From positions 47,492-111,491 of the forward strand of contig NZ_QTTN01000021.1 of assembly GCF_003386535.1 (NCBI RefSeq): a stretch of 64,000 nt of DNA, read 5' to 3'. The position numbers and the translations under genes are program-made. The stretch is from Paenibacillus taihuensis (lineage in GTDB: Bacteria > Bacillota > Bacilli > Paenibacillales > Paenibacillaceae). Below the pieces are notes generated by a model. The model was not told where the DNA came from. It ran no database searches and saw only the letters and a program-made list of their open reading frames with translations. Below, piece after piece: positions 1,606 to 53,412 of this stretch. Every line of letters begins with the position of its first letter. The first letter of the stretch is position 1.

Positions 1606-1637
1606 GGAGTCCGCGATTTCGATCGTGGTCTTTTTGT
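1606..1637 (+). terminator. weak Rho-independent terminator
   Basis: An imperfect stem (gtccgcga pairing with tcgtggtc) is followed by five T residues shortly after the chemoreceptor stop codon. Mismatches make it weaker than most terminators in this window. Confidence 0.4.
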
Positions 1638-1707
1638 GTTATGTTGGATTAATAAAAGATTTAAAGACATTTTACTGCTGGTGTCTGTAAGTGGAGGAGG
1701 AGCAGCG

Positions 1708-3114
1708 ATGCAGAAGAGCATTAATGAAATTGCGGCAATGCCAACCGACGGTGGTGAAGAGGGGACGACAGCTGCTGCTGCGAGAGGGATATCGATCGGC
1801 ATTATTGGCACCGCGCAGCTGGTCGATCGGATACTGAAGGTGCTCAAGGCATTTCCGTCCTTCCGTCCCATTCCGCTCATATATGAGCAGGACGAGGATG
1901 CGCCGCGATTGGCAGAGGAATTGGAGGATTCGGTCGAGGTGCTGCTCGCTTCCGGACCCGTACCATATAATCGGATTCGCGAAGAAGCGAATGTGAAAGT
2001 GGCGCTGCATGTGGTGCCATTGACGGATACGGGCTTCTACCGTGCGTTGTTTCGATTGAAAAATACAGTTGGCGTGGATGCGAAGAAGCTGCTGCGAGTT
2101 TCCATTGACACGCTCAGCAAGCAAATGGTGCAGAAGTCGCTCAGCGAGATTAATGAAACGAACGTTGAAGCCGTTTACTACGACGGTCCTGTCTATGCTT
2201 CGAAGGAGCAGTTGATCGCCTATCATCTGCGGTGCTATGAATCAGGCTCCTGTGATGCGGCTTTGACGGCGGATGAATCGGTGGCACAGGAGCTTGCGGC
2301 GCGCGGAATTCCGATCGAATGGATCATCCCGACGGACGGGAATATTACAGTCGCGCTGGAGCGGGCGCTGCTCTCGACGGAAACACGTCAGAGCCGAGAA
2401 GCTCAGGTCGTCGTCGGGCTTGTCAATCTGGATCAGTTCGAGAAGCGGGTCCATGTGCATACGTCCGAACATGAAGTGCAGAAGCTGAAGCTCGACATCC
2501 ACCGAATGCTGCTCGATTACGTCGAATCGCTCGACGGTTATTTGACGCCGCTTGGCGGGGATGAATATCTGTTCTTCACGACGCGCGGTATATTCGAGCG
2601 GGTCACAGGCGGCTATAAGTCGATTTCGCTGGGCAAAAGCGTCTATCAAAAGTTCGGGCTCTCCCTCAGCATTGGCATGGGCTTCGGCCGTTCAGCGAAC
2701 GAAGCGGGTACGCACGCCCGTATCGCGCTGCGCAAGTCCAAGGAAGCAGGCGGTGACACCTGTTTCATCGTAGGCGAAGACCGAACATTGATCGGTCCGC
2801 TCGCAATGGCAGATCCGCTGGAGTTCGCATTGTCGCTCACTGATGCGGAGCTAATCAAGAAAGCAGAGGACGCCGGCATGACGTCGGGCTACTTGAGCAA
2901 GCTGATGGCACAGGTCGCGCGCACCGGTAAAACGGACTACATGGTGCATGAACTGGCAGCAATTCTAGACATTAGTGTCCGCAGCACACACCGCTTGCTG
3001 CTCCAATGGATGGACCACAGTCTGGTCGCAATCGCCGGCGTGGAGAAGGTGCCGAAAGGCAGACCGCGCCAGATATTCCGGCTCTCGTTCCTGCGGGATA
3101 AGGCGGGGATATAG
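1708..3114 (+). CDS. one-component regulator: sensor domain + GGDEF-like palm domain + winged helix
   Basis: Predicted cytoplasmic regulator of 468 aa; specific family not recognised. The ATG at 1708 is preceded by ggaggagg, so the upstream in-frame extension is probably not translated. Residues ~25-190 form an alpha/beta domain resembling ligand-sensing or PrpR-N-like domains (start ISIGIIGTAQLVDRIL). Residues ~220-370 look like a nucleotidyl-cyclase palm: a beta hairpin carries GGDEY at 283-287, followed by LSLSIGMGFG and an helix rich in conserved residues. Residues ~410-460 form a helix-turn-helix/winged helix (ELAAILDISVRSTHRLLLQW). There is no membrane segment. It stands alone between a receptor gene and a repeat array. 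Whether the palm makes, binds or merely resembles a nucleotide-processing site is inference. Confidence 0.6.
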   Translation: MQKSINEIAAMPTDGGEEGTTAAAARGISIGIIGTAQLVDRILKVLKAFPSFRPIPLIYEQDEDAPRLAEELEDSVEVLLASGPVPYNRIREEANVKVALHVVPLTDTGFYRALFRLKNTVGVDAKKLLRVSIDTLSKQMVQKSLSEINETNVEAVYYDGPVYASKEQLIAYHLRCYESGSCDAALTADESVAQELAARGIPIEWIIPTDGNITVALERALLSTETRQSREAQVVVGLVNLDQFEKRVHVHTSEHEVQKLKLDIHRMLLDYVESLDGYLTPLGGDEYLFFTTRGIFERVTGGYKSISLGKSVYQKFGLSLSIGMGFGRSANEAGTHARIALRKSKEAGGDTCFIVGEDRTLIGPLAMADPLEFALSLTDAELIKKAEDAGMTSGYLSKLMAQVARTGKTDYMVHELAAILDISVRSTHRLLLQWMDHSLVAIAGVEKVPKGRPRQIFRLSFLRDKAGI

Positions 3115-3126
3115 GGGGAGGGGGGG

Positions 3127-3540
3127 CTGAGAGCTTCCATGTGGATCTCTCAGCTGAAAAACGGCGCGAATTTTGTCCTGAGAGATCCGAATGAGGTCTC
3201 TCAGCTCGGCGGGTTGGCGAAGTTATTTCGTTTGAAGTGCTGAGAGATCCAAAACGGAACTCTCAGCTGAGAAATGACGCGAACCTGCTGCTGAGAGCTC
3301 AGAATGAGATCTCTCAGCTCGCCGGGAGAGTGGATGTCGTTGGTTTAGTTGCTGAGAGAGCATAATGATCTCTCAGTCCACTTTTGGCGCGAATTTGATG
3401 GTGAGAGAACGTATATGGTCTCTCGGGATGCCGGACGAGCGAAGGTGGCTGGTTTTAGTTACTGAGAGAGCAAATAGGATCTCTCAGTCGACTTTTAGTG
3501 TAAATCTGATGCTGAAAGAGCGTATTTGATCTCTCAGCTC
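3127..3540. repeat. array of eight ctgagag...ctctcag hairpins with two alternating spacers
   Basis: This gene-free stretch contains eight inverted repeats with arms ctgagag and ctctcag (7-8 bp) and loops of about 11-14 nt, at 3126-3154, 3178-3204, 3239-3267, 3290-3318, 3352-3376, 3402-3424, 3462-3487 and 3511-3538. Start-to-start distances alternate between about 50 and about 61 nt. Short spacers share a core like cgcgaattt; long spacers share ctcgccggg followed by ggttttagtt-like text. The array is thus about four copies of a ~111 bp unit, each with two hairpins. Hairpins 6 and 8 are slightly decayed. No reading frame is conserved. Function unknown. Confidence 0.85.
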
Positions 3541-3586
3541 TCCGGGCGTACGGAGCTGGTTTCTCCGCAGCATCAGCCGCCGATTT

Positions 3587-3611
3587 AAAGACAATTAAAG
3601 GATTTGTCTTT
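3587..3611. promoter_or_regulatory. AT-rich inverted repeat upstream of the dehydrogenase gene
   Basis: aaagacaa (3587-3594) and ttgtcttt (3604-3611) form an 8-bp inverted repeat with a 9-nt loop, about 65 bp before the start at 3676. It could be an operator or a weak terminator closing the repeat array. No T-run beyond the stem supports a strong terminator. Confidence 0.35.
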
Positions 3612-3675: not shown

Positions 3676-4692
3676 ATGAGAACGATTGAGGAGTTGGAGG
3701 CAAAGCTGGCCGAACCGTCGGAGGCGCTGATACGGGATGTGAAAGAGATTCAGGGGGACATATTGCTGCTGGGTATCGGCGGGAAAATGGGACCGAGCCT
3801 TGCGCGGCTGCTGCTGAACGCCATTCGCGATGCTGGTGTGGACAAACGCGTGATCGGGGTATCCCGATTCTCGGAGCCGGGCTTGCAAGCACAGCTGGAG
3901 GCGGACGGCGTGGAGACAATCGCGTGCGATCTCTTGAACGAAGAAGCGCTTCATGCGCTGCCCGAAGTACCGAATGTCATCTACATGGCAGGGAACAAGT
4001 TCGGCACGACAGGGAACGAGTCGTTCACATGGGCGATGAACGCGTATCTCCCGGGCCGTGTCGCTGAGAAATACCGCGATTCCCGTATCGTCGTGTTCTC
4101 CTCTGGCAACGTCTACCCGTTCACGCCGGTTGGCTACGGCGGGGCAACCGAGGCCGTGTCGCCGTCACCTGTCGGCGAATATGGTCAATCATGCTTGGGG
4201 CGGGAACGGATATTTGAGCATTTTTCGAAGCGGAATGGGACGCCGATGCTAATCTATCGCCTCAACTACGCGATCGATATGCGTTATGGCGTTCTGCTTG
4301 AGCTGGCACGATCGGTTAAGGCAGGCAAACCGATCAATCTGACGATGGGTTACGCCAACGTCATCTGGCAGGGCGATGCGAACGAGATTGCCATTCGCTC
4401 CTTGCTCGCTTGCGAATCGCCAGCCGCATTCATGAACGTAACCGGGCCGGAGACGGTGTCGGTGCGCTGGGCGGCTGAGGAGTTCGGCAAACGACTCGGC
4501 GTGGAGCCGATATTCGAAGGCACTGAATCTAGCGATGCGCTGCTGAACAATGCGGCGAGATGCCAGCAACGCTTCGGCTATCCTCGCGTTTCGCTGCTGC
4601 AAATGATTGATTGGGCAGCGGAATGGGTGGAAGCTGACGGACCTACGCTCGCTAAGCCAACACACTTCCAGGAGCGAAAGGGGAAGTTCTAA
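3676..4692 (+). CDS. NAD(P)-dependent epimerase/dehydratase family protein (extended SDR)
   Basis: Rossmann-fold SDR-type protein of 338 aa, probably acting on a sugar or sugar acid in the cytoplasm. ATG 3676 is preceded by aggggag at 3661-3667. The N-terminal half has the nucleotide-binding strand ILLLGIGGKMG, a second strand VIGVSRF and an ACDL acid step. The middle contains VVFSSGNVYPF, typical of the family's active-site strand, but where the YxxxK catalytic pair is expected the protein reads EYGQSCLGRE, so the lysine position is Cys. It may therefore bind NAD without the usual catalysis, or use another residue. The DapA-family gene starts 2 nt after its stop, so the two are almost certainly cotranscribed and work on one substrate. 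Confidence 0.75.
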   Translation: MRTIEELEAKLAEPSEALIRDVKEIQGDILLLGIGGKMGPSLARLLLNAIRDAGVDKRVIGVSRFSEPGLQAQLEADGVETIACDLLNEEALHALPEVPNVIYMAGNKFGTTGNESFTWAMNAYLPGRVAEKYRDSRIVVFSSGNVYPFTPVGYGGATEAVSPSPVGEYGQSCLGRERIFEHFSKRNGTPMLIYRLNYAIDMRYGVLLELARSVKAGKPINLTMGYANVIWQGDANEIAIRSLLACESPAAFMNVTGPETVSVRWAAEEFGKRLGVEPIFEGTESSDALLNNAARCQQRFGYPRVSLLQMIDWAAEWVEADGPTLAKPTHFQERKGKF

Positions 4693-5935: not shown

Positions 5936-8900
5936 ATGAATAAGCAGGGAGGGCGGAGCGAGCAAATGACCAGCCATCGCACGACTGGATTGAAACGAAC
6001 GATTCTACTAGCTCTTTTCGCGCTCATTATGATGTTCATTACGGCAGCACCTTATAGCTGCGCAGCTGAAGCGGCGCCGCTGGCAACGGACCATAAAGTA
6101 CTTATCCTTCATTCGGCGGCACCGGATTATCCGACGACGAAGCTGTTCGCGGATGCGTTCTCAAGCGAACTTAAAGCGCATGCTGATGTGACGATATTTC
6201 AAGATTATTTGGATTTGACCAGATACGGCTCGCGGCCAGGTTATGAAGATACGATTAAGTCGCTTCTTAAGCAGAAGTATGAACATAATCAGCCGGACTT
6301 AATTGCGACGACAAGCTACGCCCTGCTGCCTTTTATGAAGGAATACGGTGAGAGCCTCTTTCCCGGCGTTCCTGTTATTTACACTTATAGCGAATTTGAG
6401 GGAGCCCTTCCGGATGCGATGCCTCCTCATTATTCCGGCGTTATCGGCGACTTCGAACTGTCTGGCACGATCGATCTCATTCTGAAGACGAGACCGCGGA
6501 CAGATAAAATTTATATCGTCATCGGCAGTTCATCTAACGAACAAAGAGCAATTCAAATGGCTAAGGCGGAAACAAGCTTATACAGGAATAAGGTAATGTT
6601 TGAATATATGAATGGCTTGGCGTATCCGCAGGTGCTCGATAAGCTGCGGCGAGCAGTTGGCGAGCATGCGGCAGTCCTGTATGTTTTTCTGTTCAAGGAT
6701 CAGACAGGCAGGTCGTATATTCCCGCCGATGTTGTGAAGCAGATTCTGGATACGGTACATATGCCTGTCTATTCACCTTTCGCCCAATTCATGGGGAACG
6801 GGATTGTCGGCGGGGCGTTGCACAGCTTCACCAATCTTGGCGTGACAGCTGCTCAGCGAGCCGAGATCATTCTCTCAGGGGAACAATCGCAAGAGGTGAA
6901 GACGGTTTTTAGCGAAGCGAATTCAGTCCAGGTCGATTGGAGAACGCTTGCAAATTGGGGCATCAATGAGCGGGAGCTACCGAGAGACATCGAGATTCTA
7001 TATAGAAATCCGACCATGTGGGAGCAGTATCGTTGGTACATTATCGGCGGGATCGCGCTTGCTGTCCTCGAACTTGTGCTCGTTATGGTGCTGCTCCTGA
7101 CAAGGTCGCTTCGCGAGAGGGCGGAAGAAGCGCTTCGGGAACACAAGGATCATCTGGAGGAACTCATCGATGATCGAACGGAAGAGCTGGAGCTGAAGAA
7201 TGTCCAGCTGATTGAAGCCAAGGAGATCGCGGAGAGCGCAAGCCGGGCGAAGGGCGAGTTTCTTGCCAATATGAGCCACGAAATTCGCACGCCGCTGAAC
7301 GCGATCGTCGGTTACAACTATCTGCTGCAGAAGACGGCGTTGTCTGATAAGCAGCTCGATTATGTCGATATGACGATTCAATCGGCGAAAGGCTTGCTGA
7401 CGATCATAAATGACATTCTTGACTTCTCCAAAGTAGAAGCCAAGATGATTGCTCTCGAGTATATTGATTTCGATCTGTACGAGGTGCTGAGCAACATCTC
7501 GAATATGGTCAGCTTCAAGGCTTTTGACAAAGGGCTGCGCATGCGTATCGCAATCGACCACGGCGTGCCGCAAGTGCTGAACGGCGATCCGTTCCGACTG
7601 AATCAAGTGCTGCTCAACCTGGTCAATAACGCGGTCAAATTTACGGAGCATGGTGAAGTTTCAGTCGCCGTCAGCGTACTGGAGCACCAGGCGAAGAAGA
7701 TCAAACTGCAGTTTAAAGTGACCGACACGGGCATCGGCATCTCGCAAGAGAAGCAGCTGCATCTGTTCAAGACATTCTCGCAAGGGGATATGAGCACGAC
7801 CCGCAAGTATGGCGGAACGGGATTAGGGCTTGTCATCAGCAAAAGTCTAGTCGAGCTCATGGGTGGTACGATCATGCTCGAGAGCGAGGTTGGAGCTGGC
7901 AGCTGCTTTACGTTCAGCGCGATGTTCAAGGAAGGCGATTACGATCTATTCAAAGAAATCCGGCAGATGAATTCAACGTTCCTGCGCGTCCTGCTCGTAT
8001 GTGAAGACAAGCAGATGCAGCTTGTCATGAAGCAGCAGCTGGAGCAGTTCCAGTACATTGTCACGATTGCTACTTCTGCGACGGAAGCGTTCGATAGCAT
8101 TCATAAATACGGCAGCTACGATTTGGTTCTTATGGATTGGAAGCTTAAAGACCATGATGGAACCGAAGTATTCAAGCAGATCTACGAAGCATTCCCGTTC
8201 TTGAAGAAGACAATTGCACTTATTAGCGATACGCATAACTATGAATTGCAGCGGCATTTGGACGATACGGATCTGGACAAGGTGCTTCCTTATCCAATTA
8301 GCCAATCGCAGCTGTATAACGAAATTTCTTCGGTTATCAGGCAGAAGCCGATGGCGGTTGCGGGCAGCGCGGTACAAACGGAAGGGATGGAGAAGTTTGC
8401 CATGCTGAACGCCGCGCGTGTATTGCTCGTTGAAGATAACGAGATAAATCAGCATGTCGCGAGGTCGATTCTTGAAGAGACCGGCGTCATGGTCGACATC
8501 GCGGAGAACGGGCTGCAGGCCGTGGAGAAAACAGCAGCGGACCATTTCGATGCGATTCTGATGGATGTGCAAATGCCGATTATGGATGGCTACGAGGCAA
8601 CTCGGAAGATTAGGGAAGCGGAGCATGCTGCGGCAACCGAACACCGCATTCCCATTATTGCAATGACGGCTGACGCGATGAAAGGCGTTCACGATAAAGT
8701 GCTCGAAGCAGGCATGGACGGTTACATTACGAAGCCGTTTGAGCCGATTGAATTGTTCGTTATGCTGCAGAAGCTTATTCTGCAATCGAAGACGGCGGTT
8801 GTGCCAGCTCCGGTACAGCAGCAACTGACTGGCGAAGTACGGCCATTGCCGGACCAGCTTCCAGGGCTGGATATTAGCGGGTTCCTTGAACGTTATCGCA

Positions 8901-50422: not shown

Positions 50423-50606
50423 GGATTTTTCCACTCATTTTCGCCGAAATCGCCCCTTTTTCGATGCTATGTAGGATAAATCCACTCATTTCTTGTTAAA
50501 ACAGTCGCATTTCGCACAAATCACCAAAAATGAGTGGATAATTCCAACATAGGCCAAGCAGAGAGCGAAAATGGACATTCTAGAGTGGATTTTTCCAATA
50601 TAGAGT
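50423..50606. repeat. four copies of a ~25-bp motif around atccactcatttt
   Basis: The motif has the approximate form TATRTTGGAAAAATCCACTCATTTT. Plus-orientation copies lie at the insertion site (before insertion of the IS it would have been tataatggatttttccactc; now split by the IS) and at about 50468-50492. Inverted copies lie at about 50526-50551 and 50581-50603. The order is two forward, two reverse. The short stem TGGA/TCCA is part of each copy. Region 50443-50640 holds no gene. Function unknown. Confidence 0.65.
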
Positions 50607-50643
50607 CAAGTGAGCGGCGGGGCAACTGTACCGCAACAGCATG

Positions 50644-51702: not shown

Positions 51703-51723
51703 TCGGCGATTGGTTCAGAACAT

Positions 51724-51768
51724 GTGAAAAAGGCTTCGCCGATCAGTTATCGGCGAAGCCTTTTTCAC
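51724..51768. terminator. bidirectional terminator with a 20-bp perfect stem
   Basis: gtgaaaaaggcttcgccgat (51724-51743) is exactly complementary to 51749-51768 with a 5-nt loop; T-runs are on both strands. It separates ytxH from the convergent MFS gene. Confidence 0.95.
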
Positions 51769-53412
51769 TTAATGCGAGCCAGCGGTTTCCAAAGCCGCTT
51801 CCTTCTTCTCTTCCTTGGAGCGCTGTGTCAGCTTCACTTTGCCGATCAGCAGTGCCAGCAGCGCGCCTACGACGATGAATACGAGCGCGTATAGGAAGAC
51901 GCTGTGCAAGGAGTCGACAAGCGTTGACTTGAGCACCGGAACCATCGTCTCGACGGCTTCCTTAGGCAGCTGCTTGAGCGCATCTGGATTCAACAGCGAA
52001 TTGTACAGGCCATGCGGATCGGTATGGATCATATCGATAATTTTGGTTTTGAAATTCGCCATTTGATCCGGCATCTTCGTAATAATCGGCGTCAGCTTCG
52101 TATCGAGCTCGCTGCCCGACACATGGTTCATAATGGCGCCGAGGATCGTAATGCCGAACGTACCGCCGATGGAGCGGAAGAACTGGGCGGAGGATGTGAC
52201 GACGCCGAGCTCCTCGCGTTTGAAGCTCTCCTGAAGAACCAGGGTCAGCAGCGGCATAACGAGACCGATGCCGAAGCCCATAACGACCATATAGGAAGAA
52301 GCGAGCACCCGTGTTGTATCCTGGCTCATGGTGGAGAGCAAGTAAAAGCTCACTGCAGCGATCAGCATGCCGGTGACCATTTGCCGGCGTGGTCCAATTT
52401 TGTAGACGATTTGACCGCCGACGATGCTGGCAAGAATCAGTGCGATCATCATTGGCATCATGACGGTACCCGATGCGGTGGCACTAGTACCGATAATGCC
52501 TTGCATGAACAGTGGAACGAATACGACCGCGCCGAACATGCCAAGGCTTAGGAAGAAGCCGACGCCGTTAACGGTCGAGAAGATCCGATTCTTAAACAAT
52601 TGAACCGGCAGGATGGGTTCGCTTGTTCTGGCTTCAATTCGGACAAAAGCAAACAATGAAACGATCGCGAGAACGAACAAACCGATAATTTGCCAAGATG
52701 TCCATGCGTAGTCTTTGCCGCCGAACGATAGTGCGAGCAGCAGGCTGACAACGCCGACAATCATTGTAACGATACCTGCGTAGTCGATCTTAGGCTTGCC
52801 AACCGCCCGATGCTTCGGAAGACCGCGGATAATAAAGACGAGAGCGATCAAGCCGACAGGCAAGTTGATGTAGAACACCCAATTCCAATTCCAGTTATCG
52901 ACGATGAATCCGCCGATTTGCGGTCCGATAACGGAAGAGAGGCCGAAGATACCGCCGAATACCCCTTGCCATTTGGCACGCTGCTTACCTGTGAACAAGT
53001 CGCCGATAATAATCATCGCCATTGGCATCATGACGCCGCCGCCGATCCCTTGGATACCGCGGTAAATAATAAGCTGTTCCATGGAGGTTGAAATGCCGCA
53101 AAGCGCGGAACCGATGATAAATATGATAATGCCCGTTACATAAATTAGCTTCCGTCCGAACATATCGGCAAGCTTACCGGCGATCGGAACGACAGTAGTC
53201 GAGGTGAGCATGTAGGCTGTCGTTACCCATGTTAGCAAGCTTAGTCCGCCGAGCTCGCCGATAATCTTCGGCATGGCCGTACCAACGATGGTATTGTCGA
53301 GCGCTGCGAACAGCATCGCAATGATGAGACCCGTGATGAGCATGCCGCGATGCTTGAAGGCTGCCTGAGATTCCTTCACTTCCACTGATGTAGCAGCGGC
53401 TTGTTGAGACAT
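51769..53412 (-). CDS. MFS multidrug exporter, DHA2 family
   Basis: 14-helix proton-coupled drug exporter of 547 aa. DHA2 hallmarks are motif D1 in helix 1 (FAALDNTIVGTAMPKI), motif A (GKLADMFGRKLIYVTG) and motif C (GLSSVIGPQIGG). There is a long extracellular loop before the last helix (~455-500), as in QacA/EmrB-like pumps. The start is 6 nt after the MarR gene stop with ggagtg, so it is the second gene of a MarR-MFS operon. The MarR protein probably controls it. Substrate not predictable. Confidence 0.92.
   Translation of the reverse strand: MSQQAAATSVEVKESQAAFKHRGMLITGLIIAMLFAALDNTIVGTAMPKIIGELGGLSLLTWVTTAYMLTSTTVVPIAGKLADMFGRKLIYVTGIIIFIIGSALCGISTSMEQLIIYRGIQGIGGGVMMPMAMIIIGDLFTGKQRAKWQGVFGGIFGLSSVIGPQIGGFIVDNWNWNWVFYINLPVGLIALVFIIRGLPKHRAVGKPKIDYAGIVTMIVGVVSLLLALSFGGKDYAWTSWQIIGLFVLAIVSLFAFVRIEARTSEPILPVQLFKNRIFSTVNGVGFFLSLGMFGAVVFVPLFMQGIIGTSATASGTVMMPMMIALILASIVGGQIVYKIGPRRQMVTGMLIAAVSFYLLSTMSQDTTRVLASSYMVVMGFGIGLVMPLLTLVLQESFKREELGVVTSSAQFFRSIGGTFGITILGAIMNHVSGSELDTKLTPIITKMPDQMANFKTKIIDMIHTDPHGLYNSLLNPDALKQLPKEAVETMVPVLKSTLVDSLHSVFLYALVFIVVGALLALLIGKVKLTQRSKEEKKEAALETAGSH

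Follow-up and report, generated by a model that had tools for sequence, protein, structure and literature searches.

The palindrome array at positions 3127–3537 of the window (the whole 64,000-nucleotide stretch of Paenibacillus taihuensis DNA analysed here) is read, with a probability of roughly one half, as one copy of a genome-wide, BIME-like family, whose members are likely to be duplex-DNA sites for a putative palindrome-binding, DNA-bending protein and likely to spread by inserting and then duplicating in tandem. This reading draws on the many copies, their near-fixed spacing, a 10.2-bp period of the A/T blocks, orthologous sites that differ in whether they carry an array, copy number that varies, and arm letters that change between genomes with palindromy kept.

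The array contains eight palindromes of 25–27 nt. Both arms match CTGAGAG/CTCTCAG exactly in six of them, namely palindromes 1–4, each 27 nt long (3127–3153, 3178–3204, 3240–3266 and 3291–3317), palindrome 5 (25 nt; 3352–3376) and palindrome 7 (26 nt; 3462–3487); palindromes 6 (26 nt; 3401–3426) and 8 (26 nt; 3512–3537) match at 12 and 13 of 14 arm letters, respectively. From 100 shuffles of the window, 0.00 occurrences of the exact-arm pattern were expected. The intervening short spacers (24 nt; 3154–3177, 3267–3290, 3377–3400 and 3488–3511) and long spacers (35, 34 and 35 nt; 3205–3239, 3318–3351 and 3427–3461) follow one another in the strict alternation 24, 35, 24, 34, 24, 35, 24 nt, which places palindrome starts 49–51 and 61–62 bp apart. 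A tail at 3538–3572 resembles, by eye, a fourth spacer of the long class, and no palindrome follows it. The preliminary description of eight ctgagag/ctctcag hairpins in two alternating spacings is thereby borne out, with six exact and two near-exact copies and gaps of 24 versus 34–35 nt.

The four copies of a two-hairpin unit of about 111 bp that were described earlier are also present, in the order hairpin, short spacer, hairpin, long spacer and with lengths of 110–113 bp, but they really pair as two plus two: units 1 and 2 show 78% similarity across 88 nt, and units 3 and 4 show 74% across 82 nt. The spacer words reported as conserved are so only in part, the exact word cgcgaattt occurring in two of the four short spacers. 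The array shares with CRISPR its 27-nt palindromic repeats, 24-nt gaps and even steps; unlike CRISPR spacers, its gaps recur within the array and fall into two classes, and the arrays are dispersed over the genome; the earlier view that this is not CRISPR stands. As single-stranded DNA, the window array folds far better than its shuffles (z = −8.7 for the plus strand and −7.1 for the minus strand; none of 100 shuffles equalled it on one strand or the other). Its strand is mixed under the search model R1, which favours the plus strand for doublets 1 and 2 (67.1 and 71.0 bits), with the third doublet appearing only on the minus strand among the matches listed (56.4 bits).

Exact pairs of arms occur 141 times in the 6.79-Mb P. 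taihuensis genome, compared with two occurrences of the reversed pattern, used as a control. In total, 61 loci were collected, comprising the window, 20 found by blastn with the window array, 20 selected on one exact hairpin and 20 by model R1; they resolve into 65 arrays with 347 hairpins and 2–11 palindromes each. The genome thus contains at least 65 such arrays, and the single occurrence of the unit that had been named as lowering its novelty did not hold. Model R1 itself contains a 24-nt gap, and the 20 single-hairpin loci were picked without a spacing criterion; at these loci, gaps shorter than 400 nt numbered 101, and 80 of them measured 23–25 or 34–36 nt (24 nt, 38 times; 35 nt, 22 times). 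Across all 61 loci, 277 of 321 such gaps fell into the same two classes. The corresponding fractions of 97% in P. taihuensis and 95% in Paenibacillus sp. OV219 hold only within the definition of an array by gaps of 20–39 nt. OV219 carries at least 61 arrays with 345 hairpins, counted at 53 loci. The two spacer classes alternate inside arrays in 200 of 217 steps in P. taihuensis and in 213 of 223 in OV219. Slots whose palindrome is unrecognisable although both neighbours are good are rare, at about 2% (6 versus 285 adjacent pairs in P. taihuensis; 5 versus 290 in OV219).

Within 27-nt palindromes, arm positions 3–7 are 97–100% constant, although the search, with its threshold set at 11 of 14 arm letters, inflates this figure. 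Within an array the spacers are similar in sequence; between arrays they differ, and it is spacer length that holds. One strand carries A-rich columns: A makes up 90% of position 7 in short spacers and 75% of position 7 in long ones. The A/T skew is 0.28 in the spacers versus 0.004 in flanking DNA, although array orientation was set by A over T and the spacer skew is partly built in. Half-sites facing the short and the long spacer differ (TGC, 24 versus 3), as in head-to-head pairs, yet the A-rich columns run the same way through the unit.

Covariation within hairpins, measured in 35 doublets, exceeded that of shuffles and of slid controls, but it largely reflects two sequence types, and pairing across spacers was nearly as good on some measures. 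Pairing across spacers rather than within hairpins was itself considered and rejected: the identity of inner half-sites over two letters was 0.36 within the hairpin, 0.40 across the short spacer and 0.31 across the long spacer, versus 0.32 for random halves of the same locus, so that neither arrangement stands out. At arm pair 2/26, the most variable, G.T and A.C mismatches numbered 18 and 19 in 27-nt hairpins and 14 and 13 in 26-nt hairpins; as the two kinds are equally common, there is no sign of one strand folded as RNA. Positions 8–9 are frequently unpaired with positions 19–20. When one palindrome was taken from each of 12 genomes, 97.6% of arm cells paired and five of seven arm pairs had changed on both sides, which 0 of 500 shuffles reached; the pairing figure is inflated, as these palindromes were selected as good examples. 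The earlier suggestion of selection on structure, made from hairpins kept despite loop changes, holds in part: conservation does extend beyond the loop letters, with arms and spacer lengths maintained and paired changes between genomes preserving palindromy. For an RNA fold as the target of selection there is no support, given the equal mismatches, the unpaired positions 8–9/19–20 and an array strand independent of gene direction.

The spacings correspond to about five and six turns of a helix of 10.2–10.3 bp, from which it appears that neighbouring palindromes would face the same side of the DNA. Over the 113-bp unit, A+T content peaks near positions 14.5, 34.5, 44.5, 65, 85.5, 95 and 105. 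The best period of the A/T blocks in P. taihuensis is 10.2 bp, at the coarse resolution that a 113-bp unit allows, and the observed power was never equalled in 5000 permutations of the spacer columns. Cyclic-shift controls gave P = 0.011 for A and P = 0.0014 for A+T, the control with A only being weak. In the OV219 arrays, weighted per array, the period was again 10.2 bp (0 of 5000 permutations and 4 of 5000 cyclic shifts), and the two results are not independent, as the genomes share ancestry. Because the phase of helical turns matters only in a duplex, duplex DNA is inferred to be what is read. Relaxed DNA has about 10.5 bp per turn, and a period of 10.2 bp lies below that value, so that the phased A/T blocks would curve the DNA with a left-handed sense.

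A search of the genus with R1, in which counts per genome refer to the best 150 candidates, recovered the family in 11 of 22 genomes, at high copy in six, and found none in the other 11. Under stricter filters, 16 of 245 Paenibacillaceae genomes drawn evenly matched at 1e-5, in 4 of 19 genera. Two other genera carry altered arms with the short step of 51–52 bp kept. In one of them, the arms are CTGTAAG..CTTACAG at locus L249 (step 51 bp), CGTTAGTCGA..TCGACTATCG at L252 (52 bp) and TGTAAGACGG..CCGCCTTACA at L253 (51 bp); in the other, represented by L251, they read CCGTAAG or CTGCAAG (51 bp). Only the short step was seen in these two genera. A third genus (L254) has copies 51 and 62 apart, then 41, and inside the genus Paenibacillus locus L255 carries CTGTAAGACC with a step of 113–114. 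The arms and steps given here come from six (L249 and L251–L255) of the nine loci L249–L257 that were retrieved.

Near-fixed distances are kept though letters differ, which suggests that the arrays are likely docking or bending sites for a putative chromosome protein. It is proposed that a putative dimeric protein would bind each palindrome; palindromy kept through changed letters fits such a protein co-evolving with its site. Neighbouring dimers would touch, their palindromes sharing one helix face, and the phased A/T blocks would curve the array DNA left-handed. The near-fixed length could stem from copying instead of selection. A broader proposal, rather doubtful at present, is that the arrays are positioned DNA across the Paenibacillaceae, with palindromes at five and six turns, nucleosome-like 10.2-bp phasing and a left-handed wrap on the putative protein along the direction of replication, the letters being re-coded from genus to genus together with the protein.

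Array strand is linked to replication in one complete genome. In G001, the A-rich strand is the leading strand in 43 of 49 arrays of clear strand (Fisher p = 7e-8) and in 51 of 64 arrays overall. A clear strand required R1 scores at least 20 bits apart, and the better strand is the A-rich one by construction of R1; the count used 143 of 144 match rows, and the omitted row alters no call. The dnaA gene lies at 0.79 Mb, and the GC skew flips near dnaA and near 4.1 Mb; the boundaries of 0.8 and 4.3 Mb were set after inspection of the data, and both skew samples and dnaA agree with them. In a second complete genome, G005, 16 of 24 clear arrays lie on the leading strand (p = 0.08; 18 of 31 overall; 120 rows), which is not significant, and agreement was found for 11 of 12 arrays with three or more model matches, a subset chosen afterwards. 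The leading strand was favoured by A over T in 10 of 13 arrays of the OV219 contig, one of the three exceptions being a tie and one a near tie, and by local GC skew in 28 of 38 arrays of P. taihuensis. The link is strong in one complete genome and is not shown as general. Because the A-rich strand is the leading strand in G001, the prediction is that the arrays act, or insert, in coordination with replication.

Two relatives carry the same two genes as the window locus and no array between them. The left neighbour (1636–3114, plus strand) has a GGDEF-like domain just below the Pfam cut-off, the right neighbour (3676–4692, plus strand) belongs to the NAD-dependent epimerase family, and both lie outside the element. 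Identity of the left gene to that of the window is 85% in OV219 (L096) and 76% in P. montanisoli (L097). Alignment with these empty sites places the inserted segment at 3114–3581; it consists of a G-rich start, the four units and the long-spacer-like tail. Since both relatives lack the array, an insertion of about 468 bp on the window's own lineage is the simplest reading. The insert is edged on the plus strand by GATATA (3108–3113) and GATTTA (3582–3587), where both relatives have a single GATTTA. This possible 6-bp target duplication, a single case with one mismatch between its copies, may point to a cut-and-insert enzyme, which was not found.

Turnover is also seen at other loci. In 1.2 Mb of OV219, both flanks were found for 7 of the 61 P. 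taihuensis loci, four occupied and three not, and only that of the window is a clean empty site. When flanks were compared with the 53 OV219 array loci, both matched for 17 of the 61. At these 17 shared sites, spacer relatedness exceeded the 95% level of unrelated pairs in 5 of 13 comparisons for long spacers and 5 of 17 for short spacers, and the best-matching spacers of orthologous arrays were 0.26–0.79 identical. Copy number differs between orthologous arrays. Tandem growth of arrays may proceed through replication slippage or unequal exchange.

The arrays lie mostly between genes. By rough calling, 25 of 44 overlap no open reading frame (ORF) of at least 100 amino acids, and the other 19 overlap 17 ORFs, 16 of which have no Pfam match; in the remaining one (L076), the domains end before the array. 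Among 22 arrays with at least three hairpins, two neighbours and no overlap, nine lie between convergent and two between divergent genes, and six and five are in line relative to the A-rich strand, so that array strand is unlinked to the direction of neighbouring genes. A partner gene was sought among 102 of the 109 ORFs flanking arrays in P. taihuensis, and no common family was found, the commonest, ABC_tran, occurring in five. Carriage by phages or plasmids was rejected: the exact pattern had no match in viral contigs, and the window array had no blastn match to phages or in plasmids.

The best-known REP and BIME elements linked to RAYT are those of proteobacteria. The preliminary description knew of no named family with this layout; the layout is in fact that of Escherichia coli BIME-2, in which palindromes at regular spacing and of alternating orientation make up units repeated in tandem (PMC2817692). 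Both families form dispersed, mostly extragenic clusters of regularly spaced palindromes in tandem paired units, as seen here in 65 P. taihuensis arrays of 2–11 palindromes with 200 of 217 steps alternating. Unlike BIME-2, the present family has another sequence, two near-fixed spacer lengths and a 10.2-bp phase, and belongs to the Paenibacillaceae. Position tables revealed no conserved word adjoining the palindromes that corresponds to the GTAG tag of BIME-2. E. coli BIME-2 contains more gyrase cleavage sites than expected, and the gyrase motif has a GC period of 10.75 bp (PMC6379681). As in that wrapping motif, alternation of A/T and G/C follows the helix for over 100 bp, but the best period in the Paenibacillus arrays is 10.2 bp, subject to the coarse resolution of a 113-bp unit. 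Since tests for the GTAG tag, a RAYT gene and the gyrase period were all negative, the family is classed as working like BIME and not as BIME. REPINs and their RAYT enzymes provide a further comparison: both systems show palindrome doublets with a variable middle, in many copies and missing at some orthologous sites, but duplex phasing is a feature of the Paenibacillus family, and RAYT-driven REPs were rejected, as the P. taihuensis genome (99.99% complete) has no match to the IS200/RAYT-type transposase Y1_Tnp (PF01797), whereas the control search was positive in 5 of 14 genomes, including E. coli. CGTC-tagged REPs, reported as palindromic repeats without a dedicated transposase (PMC3733652), are similar in this respect; no conserved CGTC tag was seen beside the Paenibacillus palindromes in the position tables. 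REP-like sequences in Bacillus subtilis are listed by one tool paper (PMC12306157). Titles and the beginnings of abstracts in the open-licence PMC literature yielded no fitting paper or name for the family.

Among other explanations, a REPIN-like selfish element is possible, if on the unlikely side. A single-stranded hairpin on the lagging-strand template would be read by a putative nuclease or transposase, the geometry would be a need of the copying machine, and the host would gain no function. The empty site at the window locus and the turnover at orthologous sites are consistent with this, as is the strand bias in G001, where the A-rich strand, being the leading strand, has the sequence of the lagging-strand template; the IS200/IS605 enzymes and TnpAREP use a single strand of this type (PMC6006769). 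However, neither Y1_Tnp nor a GTAG tag was found, and phasing at 10.2 bp serves no purpose in single-stranded DNA. The possible 6-bp duplication at the lone empty site is also unlike IS200-type insertion, which is not known to make one. Unlikely too is that the arrays are neutral relics of an old repeat family, homogenised within arrays by slippage and gene conversion and now neither functional nor mobile. Such relics would explain why spacers are alike within arrays and different between them, and why copy number varies at orthologous sites, but orthologous spacers have diverged to 0.26–0.79 identity with arms still recognisable, lost palindromes account for only about 2% of slots, and the 51–52-bp step recurs in other genera.

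It is improbable that the arrays are transcribed, as 3′ untranslated regions or non-coding RNA, with hairpins serving to protect or terminate the transcript. Strong folding, covariation and the scarcity of arrays between divergent genes (2 of 22) would suit such a structured RNA, whereas the lack of preference for G.U over A.C, a strand independent of gene direction (six and five of 22 in line) and the absence of Rfam matches at gathering score in the 64-kb window argue against it. Core sites of a tyrosine recombinase, with two 11-bp arms round an oriented 5-bp centre serving excision and amplification, are very improbable: the size of 27 bp and the orientation of the A/T centre resemble those of Xer and lox sites, and copy number does differ between orthologous arrays, but inner arm letters and centres vary among the hairpins of one array. 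A Gram-positive family of rigid helical geometry, for which no RAYT-type transposase was found in the tested genome and whose letters change although the geometry stays, would distinguish the necessary features (spacing and palindromy) from the accidental one (sequence). One genome alone offers about 65 natural sites at which to test how bacteria shape their chromosome, and the dependence of strand bias on replication can be tested directly.

Other repeats were observed near the arrays. A second palindrome type of 26 nt (GAGAGGG..TTTT..CCCTCTC or its complement, with 24–25-nt gaps) forms short arrays beside the main type at five P. taihuensis loci (L060, L063, L074, L078 and L079). In G005, another array adjoins a palindrome array from about position 2626 of locus L242, whose step, by eye, is about 50 nt and whose unit, containing GTACGAAANATCGTACAAAAGAGCCGG, is also hairpin-like, and two copies of a different repeat, GCGGAATAGCCGCTCTCGCGCTCGGAAAACAGGC, lie just ahead of a long palindrome array at 7141–7360 of locus L240. 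Elsewhere in the window, three related short palindromic words (ccactcattt..aaatgagtgg, gagtggatttttccaatatag) lie a few tens of bases apart at 50467–50620, possibly a second, unrelated palindrome array, and a 33-nt inverted repeat at 51711–51781, 82% complementary with a 5-nt loop, is possibly a terminator.
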